Source of the DNA: Ulota crispa
Lineage: Eukaryota > Streptophyta > Bryopsida > Orthotrichales > Orthotrichaceae
Direction of reading: 5' to 3'
DNA: 64,000 nucleotides
Assembly: GCA_963920765.1 (NCBI GenBank)
Contig: OY987243.1
Location: 16,368,001 to 16,432,000 of the forward strand
Of this stretch, positions 146 through 59,479 are shown in pieces (positions within the stretch are counted from its first letter, which is position 1; the number at the start of each line of letters is the position of its first letter). Made by a program: the position numbers and the translations under genes. The notes beneath the pieces are model-generated. The model made no database searches. It was not told the DNA's origin and was given only the letters and a program-made list of their open reading frames with translations.

Positions 146-1097
146 TTAACCCCTAAAAGACCAAGCACTTTTTTTGTGAAAATCATTCAAAACTGCCACT
201 TTTGGGGAAATGAGTAAAAGGTAGCAAAAAAAAATTAAAAAAAAATCCAACCCTAAGATCTTGCCCTAGACTATGGGAGGTGCTTGTGGGAAAAAAATCA
301 GCTCATTCTAGTTGTAGGGGAGTGAGATATTCACATCTAAAGTGAAAAAAAAAGTTTTTTCCCTACTGCCCAAAAATTTCAAAAGCTTTGACAGCTCCTA
401 TATCAAAAAAATTGCTCTACGCAAAGTTGAGGTTTATTTTTCCCATGTAGAAGACCATGTAAGGTATGCATGGGAGAATTCTCAAATGAATTGGAGGTGT
501 GGATCATACTTTGTAAAATCCTGCAATACTGTAAGGCCGTGAAATTTGCATATACGCTAGGCAAAATCAGAGAATTTGTGTAATACTCAAAAATCTGAAT
601 TACTTTGATCCATATGGTGAAAACCAAGGTATCTTAGTCTACTACAACTTGGAAAAAAGAAGTCAAAAATAAAATAAAAAAGGAGCTCAAAAAAGGAAAG
701 CAACAAATTTTACAAGAGGCAAAAAGAATGGAGGTTTGGGAGTCCCATACCTACTCGCAAACTAAAACTTCTCATAACTTTCACATCAATCAAAATGAAT
801 GATTTAAAGATTCCAAAATTTGTATAAATCTAAAGAATCAATTTTAGATTGCTTTTTTAAGAAAGTGCAATTTTGATTATTTTTTCCTGGGTTGCCCGCC
901 CTCATCCTTTTTCAGAAATTCATGCATAACTTCTTCAACAAACGTGGGAATGAAGAAAAATTTAGATGCCCATGTAGATCTTTTAATTTCCCATCTTCAA
1001 TAAAAGTTTCAAAAAATCACAAAAAATAGATTAGCTCTAGGTACATGCCCAAAATCCATTTGTCCCCCAAGGGGACAGTAGGTCCTTTAGGGGTTAA
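146..1097 (-). mobile_element. TTAA-flanked MITE, family 1 (copy A)
   Basis: The element opens TTAACCCCTAAAAGACC and closes GGTCCTTTAGGGGTTAA, so both ends share a terminal inverted repeat that includes TTAA. The interior is the reverse complement of the elements at 10893-11826 and 26376-27309, but clearly more diverged. Close to its right end lies a small hairpin of the form TGTCCCC-loop-GGGGACA. There is no coding capacity. Non-autonomous, probably piggyBac-like by its TTAA target and CCC termini (inference). Confidence 0.85.
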
Positions 1098-1115
1098 ACT
1101 AAGGGCTTCTTTATA

Positions 1116-2058
1116 TTAACCCTTTAGTACGCGGTTGACCACTTTTGGGTTGATTTTGGTACTCTGTGGTTCTTGTCATCTAAGTTCTATTTGATTTGCA
1201 AAAACACAAAACGTAACAGAGCTGGGGGTTTAGCTTGTGCTCCTACTGGAAAAAATTTCAAAGCAAGGCATAAAGATACACGGTAGCTATGTGTGTTTTA
1301 CATATGAAGCTAGGAATCTCATAAAAGTATAACAAATGAAATACTAATTCATTGCAACTGTGACGTGGCACCAAAGCCCACATATTGCACTCAAAGTACC
1401 TAGTGCTAACTCTCTAGTAGTTGTGCAAAAGATGCATAGTTTATTTAGGAGTTCTGACTTGTGGTGTATTTAAGCTACAACATTGTGTATTCCATGAGTT
1501 CTAAGGCTCCAAAGGTTTGCAATGCTAAATGTGGGACCTTGTACCTCAAATGACACCTAATGTAGATGATATTGACCAATCAGATTTTGTGGAAACATGT
1601 TCCATGCATGACGTATTCAACCGTATATGTGTGGCCATGTTTGTATTCTTCCAATGCTCAATTTCACAAATCATGCCATGAAATGCACAGATTGACTCAA
1701 ACTTTGTATTTTTTTAGAAGTGCACTAACCTAAAATGGGGCAATAGTCTTTACAAATTTCACCACTATCAAAAGTTTCAATTGCACAATTGACACTAATT
1801 AGTTAGAATGTCTCACATTTTTGCACAACAAGTTTTTTTGGATCATCAAGCTTCTCACAACCCTCACATGGAATCATTTTGATAAATCAAACCTTTTTTT
1901 TATATTCATGTTGCCAAAGTTTATAACTTTGATATGTCTAATCCGATGTCATTTTAGAAACACATATTTTGTCTTTGAATGTGCACAATGTGTTTTGCAA
2001 ACAATATAGTGAAAATTTGAGGTGCCCCCCAAATGGTTGACGGTCACTAAAGGGTTAA
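1116..2058. mobile_element. TTAA-flanked MITE, single-copy type B
   Basis: Ends are TTAACCCTTTAGTACGCGG on the left and CACTAAAGGGTTAA on the right. A second inner inverted match is GGTTGACCAC near the left end and GGTTGACGGTC near the right. It is 943 bp, starts 18 bp after the previous element, and has no supported reading frame. Its TTAACCCTTTAG ends are the closest in the window to published piggyBac-type ends as I remember them. Confidence 0.8.
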
Positions 2059-2407
2059 GAGCGGAGGTTGATTTGGAATATTTGATGGTAGGAACTCTTG
2101 TGTTTTTTGAAATTGACTCCAAAGTTGTTATACTATGAGTCAAGGTCAAAATTTCAAAACATACTTTGATATTTAGGAAGACAAGATTTAACATGATTTT
2201 AAACTCAAAAATTTGATTTTTCCAAAAAAGAAAGGCTTGTTTGTTGCTTTGGAGGTTTTTTTAAAAGTCAATAATATAAACTGTGTTTACAAAATTATTA
2301 TTTTTTTAGAATAATTGACAGTTTGACACTGTACAATACACTGGAAACTGGATCTCAATAACTCTATTGACGCAATCTAAGTATTCGCAACTTCACACCA
2401 TGGAAAC
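2059..2407. other. AT-rich intergenic, nothing recognised
   Basis: No gene, RNA or element boundary is visible. The stretch separates two transposon insertions. Confidence 0.4.
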
Positions 2408-2410
2408 TAA

Positions 2411-9040: not shown

Positions 9041-9488
9041 GTTGTTTGAATGCCGAAATGGGGTGGAGTTTGAGGTATTGTCTTGCATTCTATTTGATCT
9101 TTTTAGTAGTGAATGCAAATGTGGACACAAATATTGAAATTGTAAATCAAAGCCTGGAGTTTTTAGTTCAGGTATGTCTATATTAGTGCCTTATGCACTT
9201 GATGAATACTATGTTGTTGCTGATTCAAGGAAACTTTAGAATATACAAAAAAAGTGGATCTAAATTTAAATGCACAGTTTCGGAGAAAAATAAAATATTG
9301 ATGGGTAAACAAAACAAATTGAAATTATTTATTGTAAATCATATCCATATGGTTGGACCTATCCTTGTATATTACCAATAGTAGCAAATAATATTGCAGA
9401 GCTTTGTTTGTATAAATCTGTTTAATCAATATCAATTTTTTTCCTCCAAAAATTAGTCATATTATTATAAACTCAAATGTCATATAGT
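9041..9488 (+). other. 3' UTR and downstream flank of the ERGIC3 gene
   Basis: The first 100-150 bases are probably 3' UTR. The rest is AT-rich with no recognisable feature. No clear polyadenylation signal can be singled out. Confidence 0.4.
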
Positions 9489-9722
9489 TTAACCCTTAAA
9501 GGACATAGCGTGCCACTGTGACCAGTACAATATGGGGTATTTTTCATGTATTTGGAATGGATTCACACCTCTATTACATTTGAGACCAACAAAGAAGTTG
9601 GAGAATAGATCAATGCAGTTCCAGTGAGCTACTTGAGATCCCAAATTAAAACTTCTTTTTGGTAGCAAATGCCAATTATACGTCACCATATATACTATGC
9701 CCTATGGTTGTTTAAGGGTTAA
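9489..9722 (-). mobile_element. TTAA-flanked MITE, 234-bp family, left arm of palindrome (P1)
   Basis: Bounded by TTAACCCTTAAAGGACATAG and its inverse ending GTTTAAGGGTTAA. It is the inverted copy of the adjoining element 9719-9952; the two share the central TTAA (9719-9722). Related copies are at 22114-22344 and 34411-34628. Confidence 0.88.
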
Positions 9723-9952
9723 CCCTTAAAGGACCATAGGGCATAGTATATACGGTGACGTATAATTGGCATTTGCTACCAAAAAGAAGTTTTAATTTGG
9801 GATCTCAAGTAGCTCACTGGAACTGCATTGATCTATTCTCCAACTTCTTTGTTGGTCTCAAATGTAATAGAGGTGTGAATCCATTCCAAATACATGAAAA
9901 ATACCCCGTATTGTACTAGTCGCAAAGGGCCTTTCAGTCGTTTAAGGGTTAA
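9719..9952 (+). mobile_element. TTAA-flanked MITE, 234-bp family, right arm of palindrome (P2)
   Basis: It opens TTAACCCTTAAAGGACCATA and closes TTTAAGGGTTAA. The interior is almost the exact reverse complement of 9489-9722. Differences are concentrated in the outer 40 bp, so the arms have begun to diverge. Confidence 0.88.
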
Positions 9953-10892
9953 ATGAGTTGATAATAGTCCAATTAAAGAAAATGACTATTTTTTGAGGGT
10001 TTTGAGTCCTTCAGAAAGAGTTTAAATATGTTGGACTATTCTAGAGTTACACTCGATAGAGCTTGTCAACTTGCTTTTCCATTCAAGGCTTTCTTTTCAC
10101 GTGTGAAATTTATTATTTATGGTCTCCACCAACCTCCACAATCACTTCATGCACCGTTGTAAAACTAAACAAATGTAATGGTCACATGCTTTATGTTATT
10201 GGAGGAATTCACGGTTGTGGTAATGAGATCATCCATATGTTCAAGTGCCACTTTGTTTTTCAATGACTAAATGGCATAAAAGAAGTCCAAGTTTACAAGC
10301 AGTCTCAATGGCTGCTCCATGGAGGCATTGCTACCATAAGATGGATGGAGGTGGTAGAAGAAACACAAGATCCAATGGCATTGACAACCAATGCTTTTGG
10401 TTGGAGTTTGCGCTTACAAAGAACCCTAAAGCAATATTTTACAACTTGTTGCTACGCACGCCAAGTGGCGCAAGAAGTATGCTGAACAACTTCATGACAA
10501 CAAAAGTCCTCTTCTTCCTTATTGTTTGAGTCTTCAAGCCCCCTCCAGATAGCCTCCTCTAGCTACAAGCATTAAGCTTCCATTCCTCCATTTGATTTGC
10601 ATGAATCACCAAGCATACAAGTCAGATAACAAGCTCAAATGCTTAAATGCTTGAAGGTATCTCTAATTCCTAAATAAAATTCCCATCTTCAATTCCAACC
10701 AACAACCTTCCAATTAGAAATGATTAGAATGACATCATCTCAATTCTCTTTAGAGTCCACCTCCACGTTACTTTTGTTGCAACTCTTGTTTGTTTGCTTG
10801 ATAAACTCTTGTTAAACATTGTTAAATGTCAAATTTTTCATCAAACTTTTGATGACTAGATAGTATCTTGAATATGCTATCAATACCATACC
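9953..10892. other. Repeat-like intergenic DNA, unclassified
   Basis: Two adjacent short frames (10063-10266 and 10245-10529) are more evenly composed than the neighbours and may be a decayed coding fragment. I recognise no motif. No element boundaries are visible. Confidence 0.3.
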
Positions 10893-11826
10893 TTAACCCC
10901 TAAAGGACTGTTGTCCCTTTGAGGGACAAGTGGGAGTTTGGGCATGTACTTTTGGATAAGCTACTTTGTGTGATTTTCTGAAACTTTTATTGAAGATGAG
11001 GAATTCAAAGATCTATGTGGGCATCTAATTTTTTCCTCATTTTGACAATTATTGAAGAAGTTATGCATGAAAATCTGAAAAGCAAGGGAGGATTGCCCAC
11101 TCAAGCAACCCAAAAACTTCTTTAAAAATCAATATTTTTTTATATTAAAATTTGAAATTGGTTCTTTAGATTTTTTTACAAGTGAGAAGCTTTGAATCAT
11201 TCATTTTCAATCAATGACAAGTTATGAGGAGTTTTTGTTTGCGGGCAATTATGGAATCTCTACTCTAAAATAAACTTTGAAGTCCTTTATTTTACTCAAT
11301 TTTCATTATTTTGGAAAAAAAAACAAATCCAAAGGATGTAGATTGTTTATCACAACATTATGACCATTGGGATTTGCATTTTTCATTTTAATAATGAAAT
11401 TCTTAACAATTTAGTGATTTGACTCATTCTCTATTTCTTTTTACTTACTGATTTTTCCTATGTGTTGTGTAGTTCCAATTGATTTGAAAATTCTCCCACA
11501 CATAGCTAACTTGATCTCCTACATGGGAAAAATAAAGTGCAAAGTTGCGTAGAGCAATTATTTTCATGTAAGAATGGTCAAAGGCTTCTGAAATTTTGCA
11601 GCAGCATGAAAAAAAAACTTTTGTTTTCACTTTAGATGTAAATATCCCACTCATGTCCATCTGGAATGACCTGATTTTTTTTCCACAAGTACCTAATCCA
11701 GTCTAGGGCAAGACCCTAAGGTTGGATTTTCCAAATTTTCAAAAAAATTACCTTCTTAGTAACCCCCAAAAGTGGCAGTTTTGAGTGACTTTCATTGAAA
11801 AAATGGTTCAGTCCTTTAGGGGTTAA
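10893..11826 (+). mobile_element. TTAA-flanked MITE, family 1 (copy E)
   Basis: Ends TTAACCCCTAAAGGACTG and CAGTCCTTTAGGGGTTAA form a 16-bp-plus inverted repeat including TTAA. It is 934 bp, the same length as 26376-27309, and by eye nearly identical to it, which implies recent mobility. At 10911-10929 is a perfect hairpin, TTGTCCC-TTTGA-GGGACAA, present at only one end. No transposase. Confidence 0.92.
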
Positions 11827-13527: not shown

Positions 13528-14731
13528 TTAACCTTTGAAGGACTACGGAGCCCTTTATGGCCAATATTGAGAGTTTTTGCCGTATTTAAAGTGGTTGTGG
13601 TCCGCGATTTTGGTCAAGAGATTGTGGACGCAGTATTAGCATCATCCTTGACGTTTTGAGATGATTCCGGAAGGTAGGCAAATTCTGTGCACAATGCAAG
13701 AGGGCTTTATACCGGGCAGGGATACAGTTTGGTATTTCTAAGGTGGTTTTGGTCACCTAGAGTAGAAACGAGTCTGGGCTTGCCAATGTGTCCGCCTTCT
13801 TGCTAGGTGGTACAAGCAGCTCGGATGTCGATGTCTCTGCAGAACTTTCACGAGTTGGCATGAGCAACTCAAATTGAGGCAGGAGACGTTTCTTTTTTGT
13901 CTATTGTGTTCCACGTCTGTTTGGCGAGAGGTAGTGGGCTGTGCTTCTTCTTGAACATTATTTCAAGAGTGTCGTGCGGATGTGTGCTAGACCACTCCCT
14001 GCGTTGTTCAAGATCAATTAGGAGACGCTTAGGGTTTCAGCGGCCTAGAGGATAGTTGGGATTATGATGCAAAGTAGTGGGTGCAAATTCTAGGCGGAAT
14101 GCTGCAAAAATGGGCTTCTCGGCGTCAACAAGATCACAGGCAGTCTAGACACGCCTAACCAGGAAGTGTGAGGACCCGGCGCTAAAAAAGCATGTATCTG
14201 CGCTTTACTCGGAGGATTCCTGCAACCTTGAAGGGGCAAAGCAACCGAACAAATCTTTGATGAAGTGAACCCCCTAACGAACCCGCCCCTAGTCCACTAC
14301 GGTTGACGTGGTGAGACACGCAAACCTCAAGGTAACCGTTGAATTGCCACGCGCGACAACTTCATGCCATCCCCCAACACGTAGAAGCGCGTAGTTGCAG
14401 TTAGCTCCTCCCGTACTTAGGAGATGAATCCTACCAAGCGTGTTCCTGCGACAAGTTGGCAGCCAACTATTCCTGTATTTGACAAAGAATCCAACCAAAC
14501 TCTAGGTGACCCACCGCGGTGTATACGGAATGAAGCATCTGCTAGTTCCAAACCCATTGACCCAATCAACGCAAAAAAGACACAAGACATTGCGCAAACG
14601 AAAGCGAGGTCATTGCACGTAGTTTTGATTCACCAATGTTGCATTGCCAAACAAACCATCTCGTCCCAAAGAATCGTATCCATACTATATGGTGGGCCAC
14701 CTACGGAGCCCACTGGTCCTTCAAGGGTTAA
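13528..14731. mobile_element. TTAA-flanked element, 1.2 kb, with GC-richer interior (type C)
   Basis: Ends TTAACCTTTGAAGGACTACG and ACTGGTCCTTCAAGGGTTAA mark it as a member of the TTAA superfamily. The sequence ACGGAGCCC appears just inside both ends. The interior (about 13560-14650) is clearly more GC-rich than other members and than its flanks, and contains GTGAGGACCCGGCGCT, a phrase reminiscent of LTR starts. It may have captured foreign DNA. The 107- and 69-codon frames inside show no domain. Confidence 0.75.
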
Positions 14732-15961: not shown

Positions 15962-16209
15962 TTAACCCCTGAGCGCCCAAGGGACCAGAATATGGCCACT
16001 CTGTTTTTAAAAATGTTCATGTTTGACTCTTATCCTGTTCTTAATGGTAGAGTCAAAGGACTTGTACTTTTGCATGCACCTCCAGGAATGTGTCTACTAC
16101 CACTTAAACAAATTCAAGCTCTTTAATTCTACTTAGGTAATACTTTTTTTGAATTAAGTACACGACGGTATGGATTTGAGTGAATTTGGCCTGGGCGCTC
16201 AGGGGTTAA
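15962..16209 (+). mobile_element. TTAA-flanked MITE, 248-bp family (copy D1)
   Basis: Ends TTAACCCCTGAGCGCCCAAG and CTGGGCGCTCAGGGGTTAA. Copies in the opposite orientation are at 28687-28933 and 29008-29255. It lies about 315 bp before the THO5 start codon and may border its promoter. Confidence 0.88.
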
Positions 16210-16524: not shown

Positions 16525-19500
16525 ATGGAGAAGGCGTCGTATGAGGGCGTGGTGAAGATTCGGAGATCTTTGGAGGACTTGATGGCGCGCATGTTGGCCT
16601 TGAAGCGCGATAACCAGGCCAACGTCAAGGGTTCGCTGTCCATGCGGGAAATCGTCACTGAAGCGTCAGTTTTATTTATTGATCTTCGCCGGGTAAGTTT
16701 TTCCTTTAAATAACACATTTTCGTTGCCATGTAGCTCAATTGTGCTGCTGCTTCTGTTTGAATTCTAATGTTTGAAGCGTTTTTTGAGTGGATATTTGGT
16801 CTGATTAGCTTATACTGATGGAGAGAGGCGTTACGCTGTGCTTTGGATGCAGGAAAATCGAGAGATACTTCAAGAGGAAGATAAAATCAAATTAGAGACA
16901 GAGGCTGCGAAAGCGCCGATTGATCACATCACTTTGCAGCTCCATAATTTACTATACGAGAAAAATCACTACGTGAAGGCTATTAAGACTTGCAAGGATT
17001 TTAGGTCTAAATTTTCCGACATCGACTTAGTTTCTGAAGAGGCGTTTTCTCAAGATGCACCTCTGGAGCTTCAGCCTGATGCTGCATTGCGTGATGATCC
17101 TCACAAATTCATGATTCAGCGTCTTAAATTCGAGCTCCATCAGGTGCCTGTCGCTCGAATACGTTTGGTTTTGGTTTATGACATTTGGAGTGTGGAGTGA
17201 GAATCATCTCTTTAAGACCGTTTTCCTCTTTCATGAGTACTCATTTTTTGATAGTTTATGATTGCAGAGAAAGGAATTGCTGAAGCAGCGGGACATTGTA
17301 GAAGCACGCAAGAAGTTGTTGTTAGAAAACATCGCCAACCGGCGAAAGTTTCTTGGAGGTCTTGCTGCGCATCTCAAAACCTTGAAGAAATCCACGTTGC
17401 CTGTTCAGCAGCAGTTGAACATTTTACATACGAAGCGGAGCAAACAGGACTCTCTTGCAGAGCTTCTGCCTGCTCCGCTGTATATTTTTTATACGGAGTT
17501 GTTGTCTCACAAGGAAGTCTTTGGCGAAGCTGTGGAGCTGGAAATTGTCGGGAGTGGAAAGGATGCTCTTGCAATGGCGAAACAGCTTGCAACGAAAGAT
17601 GCAGGTAATGAGGCGTACCACCTTGTTGGCCGTGTCTCAATTTTGTCTTATTTCATGTGGATTGTCTGGTGCTCTACTCTCTTTGATGCCTTAAGATGCC
17701 AACGAATGTTTAGAAGTTTTGTTAATTCTCGTCTTTTAGATGCCTGTAGTGAAGCATATTCTTTCGATGACATGAGCCGGGGACAGAGGTTCTCAACTAG
17801 TGTATCTACAGAGTTTGCTTTCACTGATGAGAGTTTTCTATTTATTTGATATTCGCTTTCTCTTTCGAGTTTCCAATGTATGTAGACATTCTGAGGAGTC
17901 GTAAGATAAACAACTGCAAAACTTGTCTCATGTGCCCAGGATGACGAATTGGATTTTCAACATGTCCTTTTTATTTTGTGTTGAAACAAGAGAAGATGTG
18001 TATAGATGTATTTGCACATCATTCGGTTGATTATTACACTATCTTAAACTTGGTGACCTTGATTCCTCTTGTCAGGTAGAAGGTCGGCTGGTACTAACGG
18101 AGGAAGACGTGATCTGGAAGACGATGATGACACGCAAAGGCAGCGAAAGCGAGCTAAGAAGTCTCATGATAAGGATGCTCTAGAGAAGGATAACCTGTAC
18201 CAGTCCCATGCACTGACTGTTACAGTTCAAGTATATGATGAAAAACAAAAGGGGTCCAAGCTTTGTACCCTTAAGGTTGAGTACCTCATGACGCTGGACC
18301 TGTTGTGTGCTGGGGAGGAAGGCACACCTCCAGCAGGTGTTTCTCCTATCTTTTCGTTGGCCAACTTGTTCCCTAACGACCCGGGCCTAGAGTTGCCAAG
18401 TAAGGTAAAGAAACTACTGGTTTTGGTCATGTCCACGCTCAATTGTCATCAGAGATATAGAGCTAGAGATAGAGAGACATGTCTTTCAGTAAGGTAAATT
18501 CTCGTTCTCTGACTCTTTGTTGTTCTGATTCCAGGCATCAAGGCTACGAGCAGGTCCTGGGTTTGTATTTGATACAAAGAGAATTTTGCGGCCTTATAAG
18601 TGGATTCAGCATCTTGGTGGAAAAGACAGTCTCCCAATCTCTCCCCCAATTTTACATGGAAAAGAATCACAGACTTATCGACAACAGCACCGTCTTCAGA
18701 ATGTTCTACAGCATCTTCGAGCTCGAAGAAAAGCACAACTCGCACTGAAGTGAGTAGTCTTGGACCTTGCAAAGGGTAACAAATTTAAGTTAAAACAGAT
18801 GTGGACTTTAGTAGAACTGTTGCTTATATTTCTTAAATTGAAGCGTTTGTAGCGATATGACATCCACGTGCAAGATTTTCTTGTGGGATGAATGCCAGTT
18901 TATTGATTCTGCTTAGTTTCCTGACTAAATACTTTTACCAAATCATGATGCAGTGTATTTTGACACATAAGTATAGCACCGCATAGGATCTTGATTTGTT
19001 GCATATTAACCGAAAATATCTTCTGACGGGTAACTTTTGCTGGTGACAGAGACCAACTGGATTCTCTTGGGAAGTTAAGACGTCCTTCCGTGAAGTCGGA
19101 TTCCTCCCTACCTTGGACTTCTAATGTTCTTAAGTCCACTTTGCAAGCTTGGGCTCCGCTAGACAGCAAAAACGGAAAGCTCTCGTCTTCTGTACTTTCA
19201 CCCACTACTGGAAGACCATCAAGTGCAAATACGCTGCAGATCGAGAACGACACTGGAAAAGAGGATGGAGAACTTCCGTCTACAAGTGCCACTGAGATGG
19301 ATGCTACGATGACCAGCTCTAAACCTGAATTTGACACCTCTGAAATTAGAAGGGACGTTGCTGAAGGTGCGGAGAGTATAGCTGCGGCAGATGGCGACGG
19401 AACAGGACAAAGCAATGTTTTGTCACGTGAAGGCTCTTCGAAGATCTTATTACCAGGGGATGAGACACGAAGTGCAGCTGACGAGGGAGAGATTAGACAA

Positions 19501-22113: not shown

Positions 22114-22344
22114 TTAATCCTTAGACGTCCCATGGAAATTGTAAATACATTGCTATATAATTGGCATTTCCTATCAACAAGTTTTAATTTGGGATTTCAA
22201 ATAGCTCATGAGAACCGCATTGATTTTTATTTCAACTTCTTTGTTAATCTCAAACAAAATGAAGATGTGAACTTACTCCAAATACAAGAAAAATACCTTG
22301 TATTGTATCGGCCACAAAGGATTGTTTAGACGTTTAAGGATTAA
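22114..22344 (+). mobile_element. TTAA-flanked MITE, 234-bp family (copy Q)
   Basis: Opens TTAATCCTTAGACGTCCC and closes GACGTTTAAGGATTAA. The interior (for example ATAATTGGCATTTCC and GTTTTAATTTGGGA) matches 9719-9952 with many substitutions, so it is an older copy. Confidence 0.8.
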
Positions 22345-24880: not shown

Positions 24881-26132
24881 TAATGTAGGAGGCTCGAATT
24901 CAGAGGGGGCATTTTGAACATGGTTTCTAGAACTAAAACTATGCACAGAGATTCTAAAACGGGTCACATTTTCTATGTTCAGAAATTGTACTTGTGCATG
25001 CACCATTTTAGGAATTTTAGAGAGTGACATGAGCCAGTGCTGAGTGTGCATACTGGTCATAATTGTGTTCAAATTTGTCTTTCAGTAAAATATAGATACA
25101 TGTCATACTAAAATAAATAAAAACTTTAATTGAATCATAATTTGAGTATTAGAATATGGAATGGGTGCTTGCACACTTTAACCCCAAAACGACCTTGGAA
25201 ATTCCTGAGCTTTTAGGAATTTGCTCTTATTTGAACAAAAAGCCAACATTTTGATAAGTTGTATAAATAAATTTTGAAATGTAACCATATAAAATCAAAC
25301 TAGACATGTTAAAGATCACATTAGAAAAGAAAACACAACAATATCTCTTATGGATTGAAAGATTATAATGTTTGATCATGAGGGTGTTAAAATTGTGAAA
25401 GTGGTTTGAAGTCTTTCAACTTCTTTTCACATGTCGAACTTAAAAAGTTGGTCACCAAAAAAATACAAGGCTAAAGGGTCTAACATGCATAACCCAATCA
25501 ACTCATGACTTCTCAAAATGTATTCTACATTTTTTTAAACAAATTTTCAATGTGATTTTTTCTCAAAGATCTAGTGTATTTGAGGCTCATTCCCAAGAGC
25601 CCTCAACACTACATAAAGTCAAGATTGCAATGGACACCCGTGCACAAAATCTTGAATAAAAAAATCACAATCAATCATTTGCAAAATCAAATTGTTGAAG
25701 CTAAACTAAACTTCAAAAAGAACTTTTCAAAAAAATGAAATAATCAAAATAGTAAATTGGTAAGGTTTTATTTAACGTCAAAATTTATTTGAGGACACAT
25801 TCTGTCTTCAATGTTGTTTTGGGGTTAAGAGCTATATTGGAACATTCTTGACTTTGTAGTGGTTGGTTTTAGGACTCATGTGCTCCATTTACAAGTCATT
25901 TTTGCATCATGAATGCTATCACCTATGATCAAGAATAGCTACCTATGCACCTTTTGCTTTAATAAATTGTAGTTGATTCATACTAACTCAAAAAAAATTC
26001 AAATTAGACAACCACATAATTGTCTCTTTTTTGACTTTCTACCAAAAATATTTCCTTTCTACAGTGCTACCCTGATTTTTCCACAGAAGCGCACTTTCTG
26101 TTGGATGGTCCATTCACGAGCCTCCTACCTTA
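24881..26132. mobile_element. TA-flanked MITE, AGGTAGGAGGCTC family, interrupted
   Basis: Left end TA-ATGTAGGAGGCTCGAA; right end CGAGCCTCCTACCT-TA. The termini match 20357-20673 and 39766-40095. A 651-bp TTAA element (25178-25828) sits within it. Confidence 0.65.
25178..25828 (-). mobile_element. TTAA-flanked MITE, 650-bp family (copy I)
   Basis: Ends TTAACCCCAAAACGACC and TTGTTTTGGGGTTAA. The interior is the reverse complement of 34625-35274 and 58829-59479 (shared phrases such as GAAAACACAACAATATC). Lengths are 651, 650 and 651 bp. Confidence 0.85.
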
Positions 26133-26375: not shown

Positions 26376-27309
26376 TTAGCCCCTAAAGGACTATTGTCCC
26401 TTTGAGGGACAGGTGGGAGTTTGGGCATGTACCTTTGGATAAGTTATTTTGTGTGAATTTTTGAAACTTTTATTGAACGTGAGGAATTCAAAAATCTATG
26501 CGGGCATTTAATTTTTTCCTCATTTTGACAATTATTGAAGAAGTTATGCATGAAAATCTGAAAAGCAAGGGAGGACTGCCCACTCAAGCAACCCAAAAAC
26601 TTCTTTAAAAATCAATATTTTTTTATATTAAAATTTGAAATTGGTTCTTTAGATTTTTTTACAGGTGAGAAGCTTTGAATCATTCATTTTCAATCAATGA
26701 CATGAAAGTTATGAAGATTTTTTGTTTGGGGGCAATTATGGAATCTCTACTCTAAAATAAACTTTGAAGTCCTTTATTTTACTCAATTTTCATTATTTTG
26801 GAAAAAAAACAAAACCAAAGGATGTAGATTGTTTATCACAACATTATGACCGTTGGGATTTGCATTTTTCATTTTAATAATGAAATTCTTAACAATTTAG
26901 TGATTTGACTCATTCTCTATTTCTTTTTACTTACTGATTTTTCCTATGTGTTGTGTAGTTCCAATTGATTTGAAAATTCTCCCACACATAGCTAACTTGA
27001 TCTCCTACATGGGAAAAATAAAGCGCAAAGTTGCGTAGAGCAATTATTTTCATGTAAGAATGGTCAAAGCTTCTGAAATTTTGCAACAGCATGAAAAAAA
27101 ACTTTTGTTTTCACTTTAGATGTAAATATCCCACTCATGTCCATCTGGAATGACCTGATTTTTTTCCACAAGTACCTAATCCAGTCTAGGGCAAGACCCT
27201 AAGATTGGATTTTCCAAATTTTCAAAAAAATTACCTTCTTAGTAACCCCCAAAAGTGGCAATTTTGAGTGACTTTCATTGAAAAAATGGTTCAGTCCTTT
27301 AGGGGTTAA
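26376..27309 (+). mobile_element. TTAA-flanked MITE, family 1 (copy E2)
   Basis: The left end is TTAG rather than TTAA (one mutation) followed by CCCCTAAAGGACTATTGTCCC. The right end is CAGTCCTTTAGGGGTTAA. It is the same length (934 bp) as 10893-11826 and nearly identical to it. Confidence 0.9.
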
Positions 27310-33716: not shown

Positions 33717-33725
33717 TATTCTTAT

Positions 33726-34144
33726 GGGGATTGATATGTCTACCACGGTCACCCTTTCAGCTATTCTGTCACACCCCCAAGGTAAATTTTAGATTTCTAC
33801 TATCAAATAGTTGAATTTGAGAATTTGGAATTCAGATTTGGACTTAGAGATCTTGGTTTTGTCTAGAACCATAAAAAAAAAGGTTGTAATTGAACAACAT
33901 TAAATGAAAAAGCTTAACTCGGGGGAAGAGTATTATTTTTACTTTTGTTTATAAAAGAAGATAAGCTTTTTCATTGGGTGTTGTTCAATTAGAACCTTTC
34001 TATGATTCTAAACAAAATCACGGTCTCTAAGTCCAAATCTGAATTCCAAATTCTCAAATTCAGCTTTTTGATAGTAGAAATCTAAAATTTACCCAGGGGA
34101 GGTGGTAGAATAGCTGAAAGGGTGTGGTAGACATATCAATCCCC
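33726..34144. mobile_element. Mutator-like fold-back element with a 9-bp target duplication
   Basis: Two arms of about 185-190 bp (33726-33917 and 33962-34144), nearly perfect reverse complements, are separated by a 44-bp loop. Ends read GGGGATTGATATGTCTACC. Direct copies of TATTCTTAT flank it at 33717-33725 and 34145-34153, a perfect 9-bp duplication typical of Mutator insertions. A transcript would fold into a long hairpin. Confidence 0.88.
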
Positions 34145-34204
34145 TATTCTTATTATGCAGTTCATTTGACAAAGACTAAACCTATGATGGACAAAAATTA
34201 CATA

Positions 34205-34413
34205 TAAGGTAGGTATACCCAATACCAATCATATACCTAATGGTGTCTCTATGTACACATGGTGGTCAATTTAGGACTCAAATCTAGATAAGTCATAAAT
34301 AGCTTATCTTTTGTGTCTCAAAAGATAAGCTATCTATGGCTTACCTAAATTTGAGTTCTAAAATGACTTTGATGCCATTAAGTACGTGATTGATATTGGG
34401 TATACTTACCTTA
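34205..34413. mobile_element. TA-flanked fold-back MITE (AGGTAGGTATACCC ends)
   Basis: Left end TA-AGGTAGGTATACCCAATA; right end TATTGGGTATACTTACCT-TA. Almost the whole 209 bp is a palindrome with a short loop near 34317. Confidence 0.8.
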
Positions 34414-34628
34414 ATCCTTGAACATCTAAGCACATGCCACTACAACCAGTTCAATGTAGAGTGTTCCTCTTAAATTTGACTATATTTGAGATCAACAAAG
34501 AAGTTGAAGAATACATCAAAACGGTTATAATGAGCTACTTGAGATCCCAAATTAAAACTTCATATTGATAGCAAATGCCAATTATTTGGCAAAGTGTACA
34601 CTATGCCCTATGGCCTATGGTCATTTAA
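34411..34628 (-). mobile_element. TTAA-flanked MITE, 234-bp family (copy R)
   Basis: Opens TTAATCCTTGAACATC. The interior matches 9489-9722 (GAGCTACTTGAGATCCCAA, ACTATGCCCTATGG). It ends in the TTAA shared with the next element. The right terminal repeat is short and partly lost. Confidence 0.8.
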
Positions 34629-35274
34629 CCCCTAAATGCCCAAGCGACCAGATTTGGGTCTTTACAAAACTTTGAAGATGAATAAAATCTTATCAAATCA
34701 TTCTTTTCAGTAATTTTTTTCAATATAAGTTTGTTTTGAAGTCTATTTTCAACATCAAAAATCTGATTTTGAAATGAAAGTTGATGATTTTTCTACTTAA
34801 GATTTTGTACAAGGGTGTCCACTGCAATCTTGAGTTTTCTAGTGTTGGAAGATCTTGAAAATGAGCCTCAAATACACTAGAGCGTGGAGAAAAATCCACA
34901 ATTGAAACCCATTTAAAAAAAATGTAGGAGTAAATTTTTAAAGCCGCAAATTGATCAGTGTTAGGCATGTAATGACCTTAAACCTCATATTTTTTTGGTG
35001 ACCAACTTTTTAGATTTGACATGTGAAATAGGGATTAGAAGACATTAAGTCACTATTGCAATTTTAACACCCTCATGTTCAAATGTTATAATCTTTCAAA
35101 CTATAAGTGATATTGTTGTGTTTTCTTTTTTCATGTAATCTCTAACATGTTTAGTTTAAATTTGTTTGGTTACAATTGAAAAAAACTTGATGGAATTTAT
35201 GAAAGGTTGAATGATTATTCAGTTTCATGGAAAGTCCAAGAAGTTCAGATAGGGCTTGGGCATTTAGAGGTTAA
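34625..35274 (+). mobile_element. TTAA-flanked MITE, 650-bp family (copy J)
   Basis: Ends TTAACCCCTAAATGCCCAAG and CTTGGGCATTTAGAGGTTAA. Sister copies are at 25178-25828 (inverted) and 58829-59479. Confidence 0.88.
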
Positions 35275-35463: not shown

Positions 35464-35701
35464 TTAATCCCTGAGCGCCCGGTCGACATTATACTGTCAA
35501 TGGAGCCCATAATTTTATCTCACTTTTTTTCTTAATTTGTACGGTGAAAACAGCCATGACTGATCCCCTCCAGCAAAGAAGGTAGTCCTTTTTCAAATCC
35601 TGCAATTACTTTTTTTGAATGTAATTTGCCAAGCTATGATGGCCATTAAAGCTCCCATCTTTTCTTAAATCTTAAAATAACTCTGGGTTCTTAAGGGTTA
35701 A
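35464..35701. mobile_element. Probable TTAA-flanked MITE, 238 bp (copy S)
   Basis: The left end TTAATCCCTGAGCGCCCGG resembles the 248-bp family. The right end is weaker (CTGGGTTCTTAAGGGTTAA). Internal similarity to the D copies is not obvious. Confidence 0.5.
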
Positions 35702-38247: not shown

Positions 38248-38832
38248 TACTCCCTTTGTCCCAATATAAAGCTCCAAATTAGGCATAGTTCTTATTCCAC
38301 TAAACAGCTCCATTTTGTTAATTTCAATTGTTGAAAAAGTGTTTGTCAATTCTAATGATCTCATGTGGGCAATTAAGTAATTCAACAGCATTACTCTCTT
38401 AACAAGCTCGGCCTTGCCCATATGAAGTATCATTGTTGCTACTAATCCTTAAATCATCAATAATGAGGAGCTAGCAACATGTACAAATATGGTACTTTTT
38501 GCATGGAATTTGGGTGCCCAAACAGCAATATCAAAGCTAGAGATTTTGCACACACTTGGTAGATGGTATATTGATTCTAGAATGTGTGTGTCATTAATAC
38601 AAAGACTAAAATAATGAGGAGGCGGCAGCCTTCACAAACTATGCACAAATATGGTACTTTTTGCATGGAATATGAGTGTCTAAATAGCAACATAAAAACT
38701 TGAGATTTTACAAATATTTGGTAGGTGGTATATTGATTCTAGAATGCATTTGTCACTAGCATAATGACTAAAAAGACGGTTAACCCCTCATGGAGAAGTT
38801 TTTTGGAGCTTTATAATGGGACAGAGGGAGTA
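38248..38832. mobile_element. Stowaway-type MITE (CTCCCTTTGTCCCAATATAAAG ends)
   Basis: The left end TA-CTCCCTTTGTCCCAATA is mirrored by TGGGACAGAGGGAG-TA. This is the classic plant Stowaway terminus (CTCCCTCCGT type), with TA target duplication. Inside are two tandem copies of a 162-bp unit. Confidence 0.85.
38481..38774. repeat. 162-bp tandem duplication inside the Stowaway element
   Basis: The phrase ACAAATATGGTACTTTTTGC at about 38482 recurs at about 38644. GGTATATTGATTCTAGAATG recurs with the same offset. Confidence 0.85.
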
Positions 38833-40386: not shown

Positions 40387-41148
40387 TTAACCCCTAAGCA
40401 TCTTGCTAAGAAAATTTAGCATACCTCCTATATGGAACCCTCAATTTTTAGAAAGTTGAACAAGTATTCACACAATCCAAACCGGTCATTCTATACCCAA
40501 CTATAAATTAAATGTTTTAAGCCAATTTGATTTCAAATCCAACTAGATCTACAAAATCCCCACCGCTGGAAATCTCATGTTTGTTAATTTGGGTAGCAGC
40601 TCACAATATGGATTTTGGAGTGTGATGTGATTTTTTCCCAAAAAAAAATTGCCTAATGGTTGATCCCATGAGACTGTGTCTAGCTATACTTGATGGAAAA
40701 AAAACTCCTCAAATGGGAAAAAACTCCAAAACTTATGGTCATTCAAAGTAAGTGGACTTAGCTTGCTCATTAATTTAGAGCTACAAAAACCTTGCCCAAT
40801 CGAGAGAGAAAAAAGTGACACATCACCAACCTTCTCCCCTATACATGGGAGTGTGGGTTTTCAACCCATCCCATCCAAAATTCCTCCATCCACAATGCAA
40901 TGAACAATGCCTATATACACTCCCATTAATAGGTTTAATATTGAAAATAGTAAAGACAAATGTTTGGGTGCAAAACCTAGAGGCTTTAAGGAACAACAAG
41001 CCAATCCAAAAGTTTTGTTGAACTTTTAGCTCCATTTGGACTTGAGTGGCAGACCAAAACTTGAGCATGCAATGCTTTTTTTGTCTACTTTTACACCTCC
41101 AAGAACCCCATTTGGCCATATTGAGCTCTTTGGTCCTTTAGGGGTTAA
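40387..41148. mobile_element. TTAA-flanked MITE, 762 bp (copy K)
   Basis: Ends TTAACCCCTAAGCATC and TGGTCCTTTAGGGGTTAA. No close relative in the window; no coding frame. Confidence 0.78.
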
Positions 41149-43192: not shown

Positions 43193-44123
43193 TTAACCCC
43201 TAAATGCCCAACGCACCAGATTCTGGTGTGCAAAAAATTTCAGGAAACTTTGAAACCCTGTTGAAGTTATAGATTTTATTGTTTTGAGGTTTTTTTTGTG
43301 GAGAAGTTGCGCGTTGAAGTTAGTTTTACCGTTCAAATTCAACTTCCTTCATATCTTATTTCATTTGTTTTTGGTGGAAGGTTATCTACAAGTATACATT
43401 TTCAATTGTGAATAGTGTCGTGAATAGTGTCATGAATAGTGTTGTGAATAGTGTAACAGAGCCTATGAGAAGTTGCCACATTGAAAAAACAAGCATCAAG
43501 TTGAGCAAAAGGTGAAGATTTCTCTTGGGCACTCCCTCGGGCTATAAGGGCCTTTTTATTGAAATTTTGACATCTAACAAAGTTTATAAGTGCTTTTGGA
43601 CTAATTTCACTTGGAATGTCTTTGTTATAGAAATTAGGATCCTTTCACCGTTGAATTTTCATTCATTCATAATGATTTTTGGTCAATAATTGAAGTTGAA
43701 AATTTCTTTGTATGAGACAGTTGTGTTTTGACAGTTGCATTGCAGGCTCATTTGTGAAATTGTGGTCATGGATTTGGAAGAGGGGCCATTGGTTTTGAGG
43801 TAACAACAATAAACACTAAAGCATCCTAAGTGGTTGTCTCCCAATTTTGTGTTTAAGAGTTGCCAATTTGCATTAGAAGTTTTGGGCAGCTAAAAAAAAA
43901 GCAAAAAATTCCATACTCATCATCATTCAATCACAAATATCTTAAAGTCCGCGCGGCCATTTGGGATTCTTTTTGGGTAGTGCCATTTAGAAACCTCAAA
44001 GTTCAAGATTCAACGGTTACAATTTCTTTTTTATGTTTAATGATGATCTTATAAGGACAATTCAAAAACTTCAAAACTGCCTACTGAAAACGAGAAAAAC
44101 ACCCTTGGGCATTTAGGGGTTAA
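43193..44123. mobile_element. TTAA-flanked MITE, 931 bp (copy L)
   Basis: Ends TTAACCCCTAAATGCCCAAC and TTGGGCATTTAGGGGTTAA share at least 18 bp. It contains a 12-bp tandem repeat. The interior is unlike the other 930-bp family. Confidence 0.85.
43408..43455. repeat. 12-bp tandem repeat, 4 units
   Basis: The unit GTGAATAGTGTC is repeated four times with single-base changes, inside element L. Confidence 0.9.
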
Positions 44124-44547: not shown

Positions 44548-46368
44548 TTAACCTCTAAAGGACCAAAGAGCCCACTTTGGACTTTATGAGAACTTGAGTA
44601 GGCTCTATTGACTTCATAATTTGGAAATTTTTCATAAAAATTTTAGGATGGATGCTAGTCATCATAATCTACATGTGAAGCTTTATTTCATGTCATTCCA
44701 ATCAGCAATGCAAAAGTTATAAGGTTTTTTCAATTTCAATGTCAAACCGGGCAGCAAAAAAAATCTAATTTTTTAAATGTTTTATTTATAGAATTGTATA
44801 GATTGATACCTACTCAAAAAAACTTGAATCACTCAATTCCAAATAATGAGGTGAGAGTTAAAAGGAGTTTTATTTTGTGGACAATGAAGGTAAGAAGAGG
44901 GTAGAAAAAACATATAAAGTTATCTTTTACTCTCAATTTTCAAAATTTTCAAATGAAAATTAAAGTTACTAATTGTATGTTAGAGCATTCTCACCATTGG
45001 GATTAACAATTTTCAAATTCTCCCAAAACTTATTAGCATATTAGTTATATCTTTCATTCAACAAAACCTTTCATTTTACAATTTTTGTAAAAATGAATCC
45101 AAACTTTTTTTGGTTAATTTTTTATATATATGCTTTCAATGCATTTTCCAACACATTGCAAAAATTGCACAAGATATACAACATATATGTTTTTCTCTAA
45201 AAAGTTTGAAAAATAAAACTTCACCTTCTAAAAGGACTAGAAAAGCCTACATTTTGAAGTTCAGGCACATTGATCTTGCAAATGGTGGGGATGCTCATTC
45301 TGAAATTTTGGGACAATGTACTTGTGCAAGTCAACCAAAGGATCCTACTGTTGGATTTGTTAACCCCTAAAGGACCATTGTCCCTACGAGGGACAAATGG
45401 GATTTTGGGCAGGTACCTATGGCCTCAATTTTTGTCTTAAATTTTTGAAACTCTTTTTGAAGATAGAAAAACACATTAGCTTTTGGGGAATATAATTTTT
45501 ATTCCAATTCATGCCAGGGAGCAAATGTTATGCCCAAATAAGCACAAATTTGGGGACTAGGGGCAGCAAAAACATTCTTATAAAAACTTGAATTTTTTTT
45601 TCTTATAGATTATATCTTTGTCTACATTTGAAGCTTTGATTCATTCCATTTGGACTAGTTATGAGAAAGTTATGGACAATCTTGTTTGTCGGGCAACTCA
45701 AGCATCTTCTTGAAAAAATAACTTATAAACTTCATTTTTGAATGTAGGTTTAACATTTTTTCAAAAAAAATCGCTAGAGAGGGTGAAGTTTGCTTTCTAG
45801 AACAATCTCACCATTGAGACTATTGCGTTTCAATTCCAATGCAGGGTTATTAGCAATTTAAGTTTTTGTTCAATCTCATATCTCTTCTACCTAATGTTTT
45901 TTTAAAGAATGAAAATGAATAATTTTTTGTTTTAAATTTTTTCCCAAGATTCTCAACTCAAATTTTCACCATGCAAAAATAGAATTCCAAACTCTGTGGT
46001 GCAAAAATTTTAAGGTAAAAATGTTCAAAGTTAAAAAATCTAGTCAAGCAAGGTGCAAAAAAAGTCCTTTTTATACTTTAAATGCATATATCTTCCAATC
46101 TATGTAGTCAAAGTTCTTGAGTTTTGTATGACACATTTGTATAGTAGTCTAGCACAAGATCCTATGGTCAGATATGCAAAATGCCCAATTTCAAACTTTT
46201 TTACTCTTTGCCATAGAAGTGGTAGTTTTGAGTGTCTTTTGACAAAATAAAGGCCATGGTCCTTTAGGGGTTAAAAAGTAAGTTTCAATGAAGATTTGAC
46301 CTTGCTTTGGGGACTAGTATTTTGAAGGGGTTTTGGGCCTCTAAACACAAAAGAAATTTAGGGGTTAA
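44548..46368 (-). mobile_element. TTAA-flanked MITE, family 2 (copy G), interrupted
   Basis: Ends TTAACCTCTAAAGGACC and GAAATTTAGGGGTTAA. With the insert 45360-46270 removed the host is 910 bp, exactly the length of copy F (31271-32180), of which it is the reverse complement. Confidence 0.9.
45360..46274 (+). mobile_element. TTAA-flanked MITE, family 1 (copy E4), nested in G
   Basis: Ends TTAACCCCTAAAGGACC and GGTCCTTTAGGGGTTAA; 915 bp. It sits in GGATTTG-TTAA-AAAGTAAG, for which copy F has a single TTAA. It retains the one-sided hairpin TTGTCCC-TACGA-GGGACAA near the left end. Confidence 0.92.
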
Positions 46369-48908: not shown

Positions 48909-49340
48909 TAAGGTAGAAATACCATGAATGATTACTCCCCTGATAATGGCAAAATAAACTGTTCTAAAATCAACAAGAGCTAGATTTGAAAAAGATTTAA
49001 AAAAGATGCTCTTTCCTTGCATTTGATTGGTTCAAATTTGTTTTGGAACAAGGTTCTAGAGGTAGCCGTTAACCCCTAAATATCCACGGTATCAACTTTG
49101 AGTATTGAAAACACCCAAATTGGGTGCCTTGAACATTTAGGGGTTAAGGTGCACCTATGAAACAAAAATTGGTCGAAACCCTAAATCCACATTTATATTG
49201 CATAAAATATTCATTTTTGATTTTTTTTTTGTTTTTTTTGTTTATTTTTCACTCTTCCTTGAGCTTAATTTCTCAAGAAATTCCCCATATCTTACAGGCT
49301 AAAATGGCTTATTTGAACCGTTTATGGTATTTCTACCTTA
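48909..49340. mobile_element. TA-flanked MITE (AGGTAGAAATACC ends), with nested insert
   Basis: Left end TA-AGGTAGAAATACCATGAA; right end TTTATGGTATTTCTACCT-TA. A 79-bp TTAA element lies inside. The same left terminus recurs at 58804-58828 just before another TTAA element. Confidence 0.75.
49069..49147. mobile_element. Minimal 79-bp TTAA-flanked MITE (copy T)
   Basis: Ends TTAACCCCTAAATATCC and ACATTTAGGGGTTAA flank only about 45 bp of interior, which itself has a CACCCAA/TTGGGTG hairpin. It is the shortest member seen. Confidence 0.85.
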
Positions 49341-49420: not shown

Positions 49421-49505
49421 ATGCCAAAAACAAAAAAATGCCAAAAACAAAAAAATGCCAAAAACAAAAAAATGCCAAAAACAAAAAAATGCCAAAAATA
49501 AAAAA
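49421..49505. repeat. 17-bp tandem repeat, 5 units
   Basis: The unit ATGCCAAAAACAAAAAA occurs at 49421, 49438, 49455, 49472 and 49489, with one base change in the last. There are no spacers, so it is a simple minisatellite. Confidence 0.95.
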
Positions 49506-54202: not shown

Positions 54203-54508
54203 TAAGGTAGGAGCACCCATAAGGGTCAAACTAAGGGTTTTGAACATGATGACTATTAATAAACACTTAGCAAATTATTGAATCCTATTAGGAACAGAAA
54301 AAAAACAAGTTTGCACTTTCAAATGAATATTGTGAGAATATTTTGTGAATTTTTAAAGAGCAAACTGCCATTGCACCCATAACCAACACTAAGATTTCAT
54401 GTTCATATGTTGTACCTTGTAATTACATCTATTTACTTCCACAAATTTTCCAAGATTTTAGAGGTGATGGTTATGAGGACACTAACGCTTATGGGTGTTC
54501 CTACCTTA
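54203..54508. mobile_element. TA-flanked MITE, AGGTAGGAGCACCC family (uninterrupted)
   Basis: Left end TA-AGGTAGGAGCACCCATAAG; right end CTTATGGGTGTTCCTACCT-TA. It is the uninterrupted sister of 23622-24361 and provides the empty TTA site there. Confidence 0.85.
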
Positions 54509-55136
54509 ACCCCTAAACGTCAAGGAAGATGAAAAACATCCTCCGGCTTTGAAAAAAGATTTTGTGATTCAAAAAAAGTTGTTTTTCATTTGATTTTTTT
54601 CGGAAGTGACCATAAACACATGGTCCATCATGCAAGACAAAAAACTACCTCTTGAGAGGGGAATGCTATTTCATGAGTAGGGGTCCATGAGCCGTGAGCC
54701 GTGAGTAGGGATTTTTTGTCAAAATAATAAAATTTACCTATAAATGTGTATATGAGACCCTATTATTGTGCATTTTAAACTACTATCTCTTGAAAAACTT
54801 GTTGTGTTCTTAATTTTTCCATTGATTTTGAGTTGAAACTCCATTCCCGCTCACAAAATCTTGAATCCCCGCTCACGGCTCACCATTTTATGCTCACCAA
54901 ATAGCGTTGTCCCCTCTTGAGATGCATTCATTTTTTTTTGTAATCCAAAATGTGATAAGATTCCAAAACATAGTGTTAGCTCCCAAGCTACCCTTCTTGC
55001 AATTTTCGTGAGGGCACCATGCACTATTGACTTTTCCAACTTTTTGAAGCAATACTACTGGTGCCCATGTGCAAAACACTGTATAATGCTACAAGCAAGC
55101 CAAGCCACGGTGATCCATTTGTCCTTTAAGGGTTAA
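54506..55136. mobile_element. TTAA-flanked MITE, 631 bp (copy M)
   Basis: Ends TTAACCCCTAAACGTC and TGTCCTTTAAGGGTTAA. It inserted at the TTAA formed by the end of the preceding TA-element. A short run GAGCCGTGAGCCGTGAG occurs inside. Confidence 0.8.
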
Positions 55137-57808: not shown

Positions 57809-58804
57809 AACTCTGCACTTGCTTAACTAAAACAATTTGAATGCCAATTCAAGTCTCCTTAGAAACTCTTCCAATTCCTGACGCTTGAATTCACCTCATG
57901 CTTTTCCGTCGTTCTCCGATCCTCTCATCAACCAGAACCGCATATAGTTTCTTTCAAATTCCTGCAAGTTGCGATAAACCCTCAATTAGGGTTTTGACTC
58001 ATTCCCCGAACAAAAACAAAGATTTTGAATATTCGACGACTTGAGTAAATGCACATCCTCGACATATCAATTCCTGACACGATAAGAGAATAGTTTCTAT
58101 CAAATTCCTGCATAAATTGCGATAAACCCTCAATTAGGGTTTTGACTCATTCCCCCAACAAATACAATTATTTTGCATATTCGACGACTTGAGTCAATGC
58201 ACATCCTTGATATATCAATTCCTGACACAATAAGGAATTCTCTCAGCGACCTAACCAATTCTCACAATTCTTCACTCTGAAATCCATGTCCATTGTTTTG
58301 TTGAAGAAATCATCATACACGTCAAAATTTCGACACATCGACAATTCGAACGTTACAGAAATTAACAACCAAAACGACTTCCTGATTCCGACCACGCAAA
58401 AGGTGAATCGAATTCAATTCTAACAAGAGAATTCCGTCAAAACAGAGCATTTCATAAGTTGAACGCCACGAAAACTGAACGCCAGAACGGATTACGACGG
58501 AGAAATGCATGATGGAGAGCTTTGCATTCCGGGAATTTCAAACGCGCGCGATGTGCGAGGGTTTTACCGATTCAACAGCACGTTAGTGACTAACTGTCGC
58601 AGAGCGAAATACTTCCGGGCTTGCAAACAGACCGCGAGCTGTGAATGAGTTCTTGTGGCTGGAGGTTTGGGGTCCTGTTACCGTGGGGATAACGTGGTCC
58701 AAACTCTGCTTCTGCACTGCCGTGTGGATAGAAGTGGATGACTTTCATCCACTTCGACATTCCCAACGACAGTGGATTTCAAATTTTTATGAACTTCAAA
58801 TCAG
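57809..58804 (-). promoter_or_regulatory. Upstream region of the 132-aa gene with paired telobox palindromes
   Basis: Contains AAACCCTCAATTAGGGTTT at 57976-57994 and again at 58124-58142, each an inverted pair of the plant telobox AAACCCT. They lie about 170 and 315 bp upstream of the start codon. Teloboxes are known in plant promoters of growth- and translation-related genes. The GC-rich part at 58380-58740 may be the promoter of a divergent transcript, but none is seen. Confidence 0.5.
57943..58238. repeat. 148-bp tandem duplication containing the telobox palindrome
   Basis: Two direct copies offset by 148 bp (about 57943-58090 and 58091-58238) share ATAGTTTCT, GCGATAAACCCTCAATTAG, ATTCGACGACTTGAG and ATATCAATTCCTGACAC, with about one change per ten bases. 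Confidence 0.88.
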
Positions 58805-58828
58805 CTAAGGTAGAAATACCATAAACGG

Positions 58829-59479
58829 TTAACCCCTAAATGCCTGCGGCACCAAAGTTTGGTGTTTGGAATACTCTAAAGTTCAATAAACCTAGCTAAC
58901 TAGGTTACTACTTTTAGTAGTTTAGTTTACATTTTGGAATTATTTTTTGTGAAGTCTAATTTTAGGATTAATAATTCGATTTTGAAAATGATCAATTAAG
59001 GGTTTTTTATTCAAGTTTTTGTGCAAGGGCCTTGACTTTCTCTAGTGTTGTGAGTTCTTGGAAATGAGCCTCAAATACACTAGATCTTGGAGAAAAATTT
59101 ATATAAAAATTTCATTTGAAAAAACTGTAGAAAAGATTTTGAAAAGCTATAAAGTGATTGGGGTTATGTATGTTATTTCCTTTAACCTTATATTTGTTTG
59201 ATGATCATTTTTAAAAATCCAACATGTGAAAAGAGGATTCAAAGGCTTGAAGTCATATTTGTAGTGTTAACACCGTCATGATCAAACATTATAATCTTTC
59301 AATCCATTAGTGATATTGTTGTGTTTTCTTTTCTTCTATAACCTTTAACATATCTAGTTTGAATTTGTACACTTATAATTCAAAAGAATTTGATACAACT
59401 TATTAAAATGTTGCCTTTTTGTTAAATTTGAAGCAAATTCCTAAAAACCTAAAAAAGGCCTCAGGCATTTAGGGGTTAA
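58829..59479 (+). mobile_element. TTAA-flanked MITE, 650-bp family (copy J2)
   Basis: Ends TTAACCCCTAAATGCCTGCG and CAGGCATTTAGGGGTTAA. It sits just inside what looks like the left end of a TA-element (TA-AGGTAGAAATACCATAAA at 58804-58828) whose other end is missing. Confidence 0.88.

Follow-up and report, generated by a model that had tools for sequence, protein, structure and literature searches.

A 64-kb stretch of the genome of the moss Ulota crispa (C2:16368001-16432000, OY987243.1; hereafter the window) carries about two dozen small elements flanked by TTAA. We conclude, with a probability of about 95%, that they are mostly non-autonomous members, resembling miniature inverted-repeat transposable elements (MITEs), of a large and old piggyBac lineage and that they were moved by related transposases. 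The conclusion draws on piggyBac-type transposases found elsewhere in the host genome (274.8 Mb in 157 contigs) between the same ends that bound the window elements.

A sequence-only reading of the window had proposed about 24 TTAA-flanked elements with one terminal consensus and at least five unrelated interiors, amounting to a quarter of the window. We measured all 24 again, scoring end agreement over the 16 bases inside TTAA, and these proposals held up. TTAA was present at both ends of 23 of the 24 elements, the exception being 26376-27309 with a left end of TTAG, and the two ends matched at 10 or more of the 16 bases in 19. The elements below that level were 31271-32180 (9), 34411-34628 (3), 35464-35701 (9), 40387-41148 (8), and 44548-46368 (8). 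The 17-mer end TTAACCCCTAAAGGACC was matched 28 times in the window with up to three mismatches, against 0.22 expected from shuffles, and BLAST comparison among the elements gave about 12 interior groups, the matching pairs being grouped by hand. The quarter is a fair description because the union of the elements covers 14,892 bp, or 23.3% of the window. Two elements are nested, 45360-46274 inside 44548-46368 and 29008-29255 inside 28930-30130, and in three adjacent pairs a single TTAA is common to both neighbours.

The same ends recur throughout the genome. TTAACCCCTAAAGGACC occurs exactly 8,154 times (4,072 + 4,082; reversed control, 0) and CCCCTAAAGGACC, the 13-mer end without TTAA, 9,597 times (4,753 + 4,844; control, 3), so that 85% of the 13-mer ends are preceded by TTAA (8,154/9,597). 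The string TTAACCCCTAAATGCC was counted 4,241 times (control, 0) and the looser end TTAACCCYTRARNGNCC 25,829 times (control, 2), on average 6.0 times in every 64 kb. With 13 copies of TTAACCCYTRARNGNCC the window is richer than average, and its quarter therefore cannot be inferred for the whole genome; if its ratio of claimed ends to TTAACCCYTRARNGNCC (48:13) held everywhere, there would be ∼48,000 elements genome-wide, an extrapolation from one rich window. The sequence-only reading had named the genome-wide absence of TTAA duplication as an outcome that would speak against it; instead, besides the 85% of ends adjoining TTAA, we observed duplication of the target at one clean empty site and at one that is less clean. 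In the former, the flanks of 45360-46274, joined with one TTAA, align to 31271-32180 with no gap at the junction. The latter is a stretch in L015, one of the transposase loci described below, which is related to 48909-49219 and does not contain the 79-bp element 49069-49147. For the insertion of 29008-29255 in 28930-30130, no uninserted related copy was found among the window elements.

A profile search of the genome with PF13843 (DDE_Tnp_1_7) gave 120 matches at at least 116 sites, with a best score of 254.5 bits; these counts are a lower bound, 116 of 527 candidates having been scored. The domain gave no match in any of 14 control genomes. We read out the 30 best loci (L009-L038) with their flanks, and the per-locus counts that follow cover these; the window itself contained no match at E≤0.01 to their 30 domain translations. 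The frame at L019 scored 213.3 bits against a cut-off of 22.4, and a moss frame matched the PDB entries of piggyBat (9c0f, E 2.5e-20) and Trichoplusia ni piggyBac (6x67, E 7.2e-19). When L019, L012, L031, and L009 were aligned with six protein relatives, the aspartates of the VD(E/K), DNFF, and VDxxDQ motifs were among the invariant columns of the ten sequences; we take them to be the three catalytic residues of the DDD triad, with positions after T. ni piggyBac. In 21 of the 30 loci the domain match is followed, at a distance of 177-208 bp, by a Cys-rich motif as expected of the C-terminal domain. A simple pattern, counted by hand, recovered 15 of these motifs in full and 6 in part and had no match in L011, L020, L024, L025, L028, L033, L034, L035, and L038. 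A profile search for related proteins, limited in its reach, found 73, and the six that are named are all from animals.

Most of these genes are decayed. At least one in-frame stop interrupts the domain in all but one of the 30 loci (29 of 30), and 10 of the 120 PF13843 rows are free of stops. Across the 30 loci the in-frame stops are TAG (64), TGA (37), and TAA (16), although CAA (276) is commoner among the extant codons than CAG (172) or CGA (85); TGG codons number 337. CHG and CG are the methylation contexts of plants, and the stop bias fits a loss of CAG and CGA by deamination of methylated cytosines in those contexts, an argument weakened because TGG codons can also yield TAG or TGA. The observed/expected ratio of CpG is 0.38 in the window elements versus 0.60 outside them.

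Short inverted terminal repeats starting with CCC link these transposases to the window. In 12 of the 30 loci (L009, L012, L013, L014, L016, L021, L027, L030, L031, L033, L036, and L038), the transposase lies between paired ends of the TTAACCC type that agree at 10 or more of 14 bases, with CCC at one end only in L016, L021, and L031; the test discarded ends in which at least 10 of 14 letters were equal. Eleven of the paired elements measure 5,025-5,746 bp (5.0-5.7 kb), and L038 measures 8,255 bp with inserts; other repeats are present within L012 and L038. At 11 or more of 14 bases, TTAA pairs were found in 11 of the 30 loci, 10 of them CCC-type (L011 is not), against 0, 0, 2, 1, and 1 of 30 for five tetramers made of the same letters and used as controls. 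Pairs at L011 (50-6221) and L022 (324-5462) were rejected as ends, being without CCC, and L028, which looks flanked by eye, fell below 10/14 and was not counted. L038 carries TTAACCCCTAAAGGACC at both ends, exactly the ends of the window, and L012 carries TTAACCCCTAAATGCCTA at both ends (counted above as TTAACCCCTAAATGCC; end variant CCCCTAAATGCC). L009 and L018, copies with about 90% identity, have in common a stretch that runs from the L009 TTAA to the 3' TTAA of that locus; L018 shows no TTAACC at its own left end. The search for a DDD transposase between such ends, which the sequence-only reading had called for, has thus found one, and its attribution of TTAA plus CCC(T) ends to piggyBac gains support from PF13843 transposases with aligned Asp motifs lying between matching ends. 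An element with these ends that encodes a transposase of another kind, the outcome that had been named as contrary evidence, was not encountered in this search, which covered PF13843.

The window elements, in window coordinates (a strand is given for the one element to which it was assigned), are as follows.

146-1097: group A element, CCCCTAAA(A/G)GACC ends, 952 bp; resembles L038 over 509 bp at the 3' end (78%) and over 149 bp at the 5' end (80%).
1116-2058: element with CCCTTTAGT ends, 943 bp; CCCTTTA-type ends also flank the L013 transposase.
9489-9722: short element of the ∼230-bp group; TTAA 9719-9722 common with the next element.
9719-9952: short element of the ∼230-bp group; inverted copy of 9489-9722, 94%.
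10893-11826: group A element, 934 bp; 97% identical to 26376-27309, ends match L038.
13528-14731: element with CC(C/T)TTGAAGGAC ends, 1204 bp; similar ends around the L031 transposase.
15962-16209: short element with CCCCTGAGCGCC ends, 248 bp, by end comparison.
22114-22344: short element of the ∼230-bp group, by interior grouping.
25178-25828: element with CCCCAAAAC ends, 651 bp; ends like those of transposase element L030.
26376-27309: group A element, 934 bp, left TTAA reading TTAG; matches the L038 ends.
28687-28933: short element with CCCCTGAGCGCC ends, by end comparison.
28930-30130: element of about 950 bp without its insert; contains 29008-29255.
29008-29255: short element, nested in its host 28930-30130.
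31271-32180: element, 910 bp; the copy with the empty TTAA site of 45360-46274.
34411-34628: short element of the ∼230-bp group, probably truncated, with no recognisable right terminus.
34625-35274: 650-bp element with CCCCTAAATGCC ends; its opening 35 bp are the same as a left end upstream of the L022 transposase.
35464-35701: short element with a weak end match (9/16), by end comparison.
40387-41148: element, 762 bp, with a weak end match (8/16); right end exactly CCCCTAAAGGACC.
43193-44123, plus strand: 931-bp element with CCCCTAAATGCC ends; most likely derived from a transposase element by internal deletion, as both ends match L012.
44548-46368: 31271-group element into which 45360-46274 has inserted, by interior grouping and the empty-site alignment.
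45360-46274: element, 915 bp, inserted with TTAA duplication; exactly CCCCTAAAGGACC at both ends.
49069-49147: minimal element, 79 bp; a related L015 stretch is without it.
54506-55136: element, 631 bp, by end comparison.
58829-59479: element with CCCCTAAATGCC ends, 651 bp, by end comparison.

The two short elements in inverted order at 9488-9953 together make up an inverted repeat of 233 nt (94%) that lacks a spacer and is a possible hairpin source. The repeat at 33725-34150, whose inverted arms are 128 nt long (89%), is also seen inside or beside L012, L022, L025, L034, and L038.

Judged by alignment, some of the small elements descend from the ends of transposase elements. One such element is 43193-44123, which aligns with L012 over 114 bp at the left end (76%) and 554 bp at the right end (84%), the 264 bp between them being unmatched. 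The group A elements 146-1097, 10893-11826, and 26376-27309 match the first 142-151 bp of L038 at 79-83% and also its 3' end, one copy over 518 aligned bp (78%). For 45360-46274, the stretches that match L038 are 106 bp long at one end and 58 bp long at the opposite end.

In a tree of the transposases, a branch with 100/99 support separates the 30 moss sequences from five animal sequences; the root is not known and two animal rows sit on very long branches. The moss side of the split also holds the proteins P0001, P0002, P0003, P0005, P0008, and P0163. An end of the CCCCTAAA type was found at the expected place in L011, L012, L022, L025, L026, L034, and L038, and these seven loci form one branch (88/78) within a ten-row branch (100/99).

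These observations are best explained by a model in which transposases from related 5.0-5.7 kb elements would have recognised a common terminal sequence, and the small elements would have been cut out and inserted at TTAA, with duplication of the TTAA. Some small elements would have arisen by internal deletion of transposase elements, and in others the ends are similar but the interiors unrelated. The CCC-type end varies from one transposase subfamily to the next, and each of several such subfamilies would have driven its own set of small elements. We infer that the small elements were moved in trans by the moss transposases. Cut-and-paste chemistry is established for insect piggyBac and, by analogy, is probably also that of the moss elements.

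Several results weigh against the model. Within group A, 294-442 bp have no counterpart in L038, so that simple internal deletion does not explain everything, and for the group of 9489, 9719, 22114, and 34411, for 40387, and for most of 31271, no transposase element with a matching interior was found among the 30 loci. No CCC-type end pair passed in 18 of the 30 loci, some having one end and some none, and a motif Asp is changed or missing in several broken loci (e.g., L017, L020, L021, L024, and L030). Both CCCCTAAA ends are present only in L012 and L038, one having been assigned in L011, L022, L025, L026, and L034. An CCCCTAAAGACCC end also occurs in L031, a locus on another branch, beyond the pair of ends that belongs to that element, and end and branch therefore need not always go together. 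Finally, the L015 empty site reads TTTAG and is not a clean TTAA.

A TTAA target and short C-rich ends alone are no proof of piggyBac, Sola3 being another superfamily that targets TTAA, and the elements could in principle belong to such a superfamily with the piggyBac transposases as mere neighbours. Our genome search covered PF13843 and other transposase families were not searched for, which speaks for this alternative, but the exact ends and the subterminal sequence of window elements lie on both sides of PF13843 transposases in L038 and L012, making it very unlikely. Sola3 and other TTAA users were dropped, with no search for them made, once PF13843 transposases with the same ends had been found. 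That the small elements are repeats whose ends came to be alike by chance or by gene conversion, and not products of transposition, could draw on the elements that adjoin and have one TTAA in common. This explanation has to reckon with 8,154 exact ends, with TTAA ahead of 85% of the 13-mers, with about 12 unrelated interiors, and with a clean nested insertion that has its empty site, and we regard it as scarcely credible. Membership of a piggyBac lineage is the reading that we retain.

Many of the moss loci also contain a conserved coding stretch of about 75-115 residues upstream of the transposase, with a core like WRxLFYRxxAxxLGW. It was detected in 17 of the 30 loci by tblastn (E≤0.05; six are the query sources) and in 15 by profile (E<0.001; six are the seeds), and no reverse-strand frame in the 30 loci matched the profile at E<0.001. 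In the window, no match to it was better than E 0.4. Genome searches with two versions of the region gave 67 and 32 matches, representing 96 distinct sites. A listed PF13843 match lies within 8 kb of 48 of these sites, and all 48 are upstream of one on the same strand, the chance expectation being about 0.002 per site; 34 of the 48 belong to transposases beyond the 30 read out. The other 48 sites may lie near unscored transposases or may themselves be remnants. Conversely, 49 of the 116 listed transposases have such a site and 67 are without one at the sensitivity of the search. The region had no match above cut-off in Pfam (the best was DUF938, E 0.25) and none in the PDB.

The chances seem to us even that this region belongs to a single long transposase gene as its first exon and does not encode a separate accessory protein. 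Its constant strand and upstream position at all 48 transposase-near sites favour a single gene, but P0163, a relative of 931 amino acids (aa), gives no match to the region at E≤1 and maps to L031 from 1814 on, the upstream region there lying at 1096-1362. Four other protein relatives match the region weakly (E 0.029-1). The moss transposases themselves seem long, because P0163 has about 450 residues ahead of its PF13843 match (450-826). A 689-aa open frame spanning the upstream region at C5:9280663, which resembles a transposase fusion, was rejected since it runs through a GA-rich repeat.

The moss elements resemble T. ni piggyBac and piggyBat in PF13843, the aligned Asp motifs, the C-terminal Cys-rich motif, the TTAA target, and CCC-type ends, and they differ from animal piggyBac in the conserved upstream coding region and in the placement of their transposases on a branch of their own. 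According to the accessible text on beetle piggyBac, elements of 2,074-3,465 bp carry a single open reading frame (ORF) of ∼500-725 aa (PMC12732532); the paired moss elements, at 5.0-5.7 kb, do not have this typical single-ORF size of ∼2-3.5 kb, which is not a defining one. Pokey of Daphnia is a piggyBac-superfamily element in a paper that also treats MITEs (PMC3849761), and as described in the accessible part it is specific to ribosomal DNA in a crustacean, whereas the moss elements are dispersed in a plant.

For plants, a 2015 survey lists PiggyBac among the superfamilies in all groups studied, land plants included (PMC4438587), a review gives it as a MITE superfamily of angiosperms (PMC10004981), and two insect papers say in passing that piggyBac is known from plants (PMC10813416, PMC10140906). 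A fern repeat table has it at 0.00% (PMC6890710), a grass at 1 copy of 75 bp (PMC8319324), and a 2025 paper calls it occasional in plants, with red algae as the example (PMC12732532). In the accessible text of these sources, the plant records are table or list entries, none of which links a transposase to small elements and none of which is a moss. The sequence-only remark that the superfamily is scarcely reported in land plants is right to that extent, although it is not unheard of there (PMC4438587, PMC10813416, PMC10140906). Our literature search, with subscription papers and preprints outside its scope, found no description of a piggyBac native to a moss in the text it reached; in a paper on the moss Niphotrichum (PMC10619864), the matching text has the wording "expression piggybacking."

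Other features were noted in the window. The stretch 38248-38832 has inverted ends TACTCCCTTTGTCCCAATATAAAG (31 nt, 94%), which we take to resemble Stowaway-type ends. A 280-aa open frame at 62646-63488 contains the stretch LVDSGATETF, which resembles a retroviral-type aspartic protease and probably marks a long terminal repeat retrotransposon, and a 195-aa open frame at 17262-17849 looks to us like an exon of plant THO complex subunit 5. The plastid gene matK on contig C157 places the genome in the moss class Bryopsida: one protein relative is 94% identical to its product, and the nearest named sequences are from the mosses Orthodontium (84%; a genus of Bryopsida), Bartramia (83%), and Campylium (81%). 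Among 120 of the 149 matches, the named liverworts, hornwort, ferns, and seed plants stood at 38-45% and lycophytes at 44-48%. Elsewhere in the genome, a second, open copy of matK lies on a 22-Mb contig (C7:6541578-6542525, L059) and scores 342.5 bits versus 341.7 for the copy on C157; it is either a recent plastid insertion or an assembly error.

What is surprising in these results is the lineage of the host, the scale of the phenomenon, and the presence of an extra coding region. We think it an even bet that large piggyBac elements with a long transposase and a second conserved protein of unknown fold form a deep clade in mosses, so far undescribed, and that in one moss genome this lineage gave rise to small elements by the tens of thousands. 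PiggyBac is a main tool for gene transfer, and most accounts of its natural history concern animals. The superfamily would gain in range from a land-plant lineage that has many transposase subfamilies, matching sets of small elements, and an added conserved coding region. Such a lineage would offer a natural test of which ends pair with which transposase, and the added region raises the question of its role in a plant nucleus.

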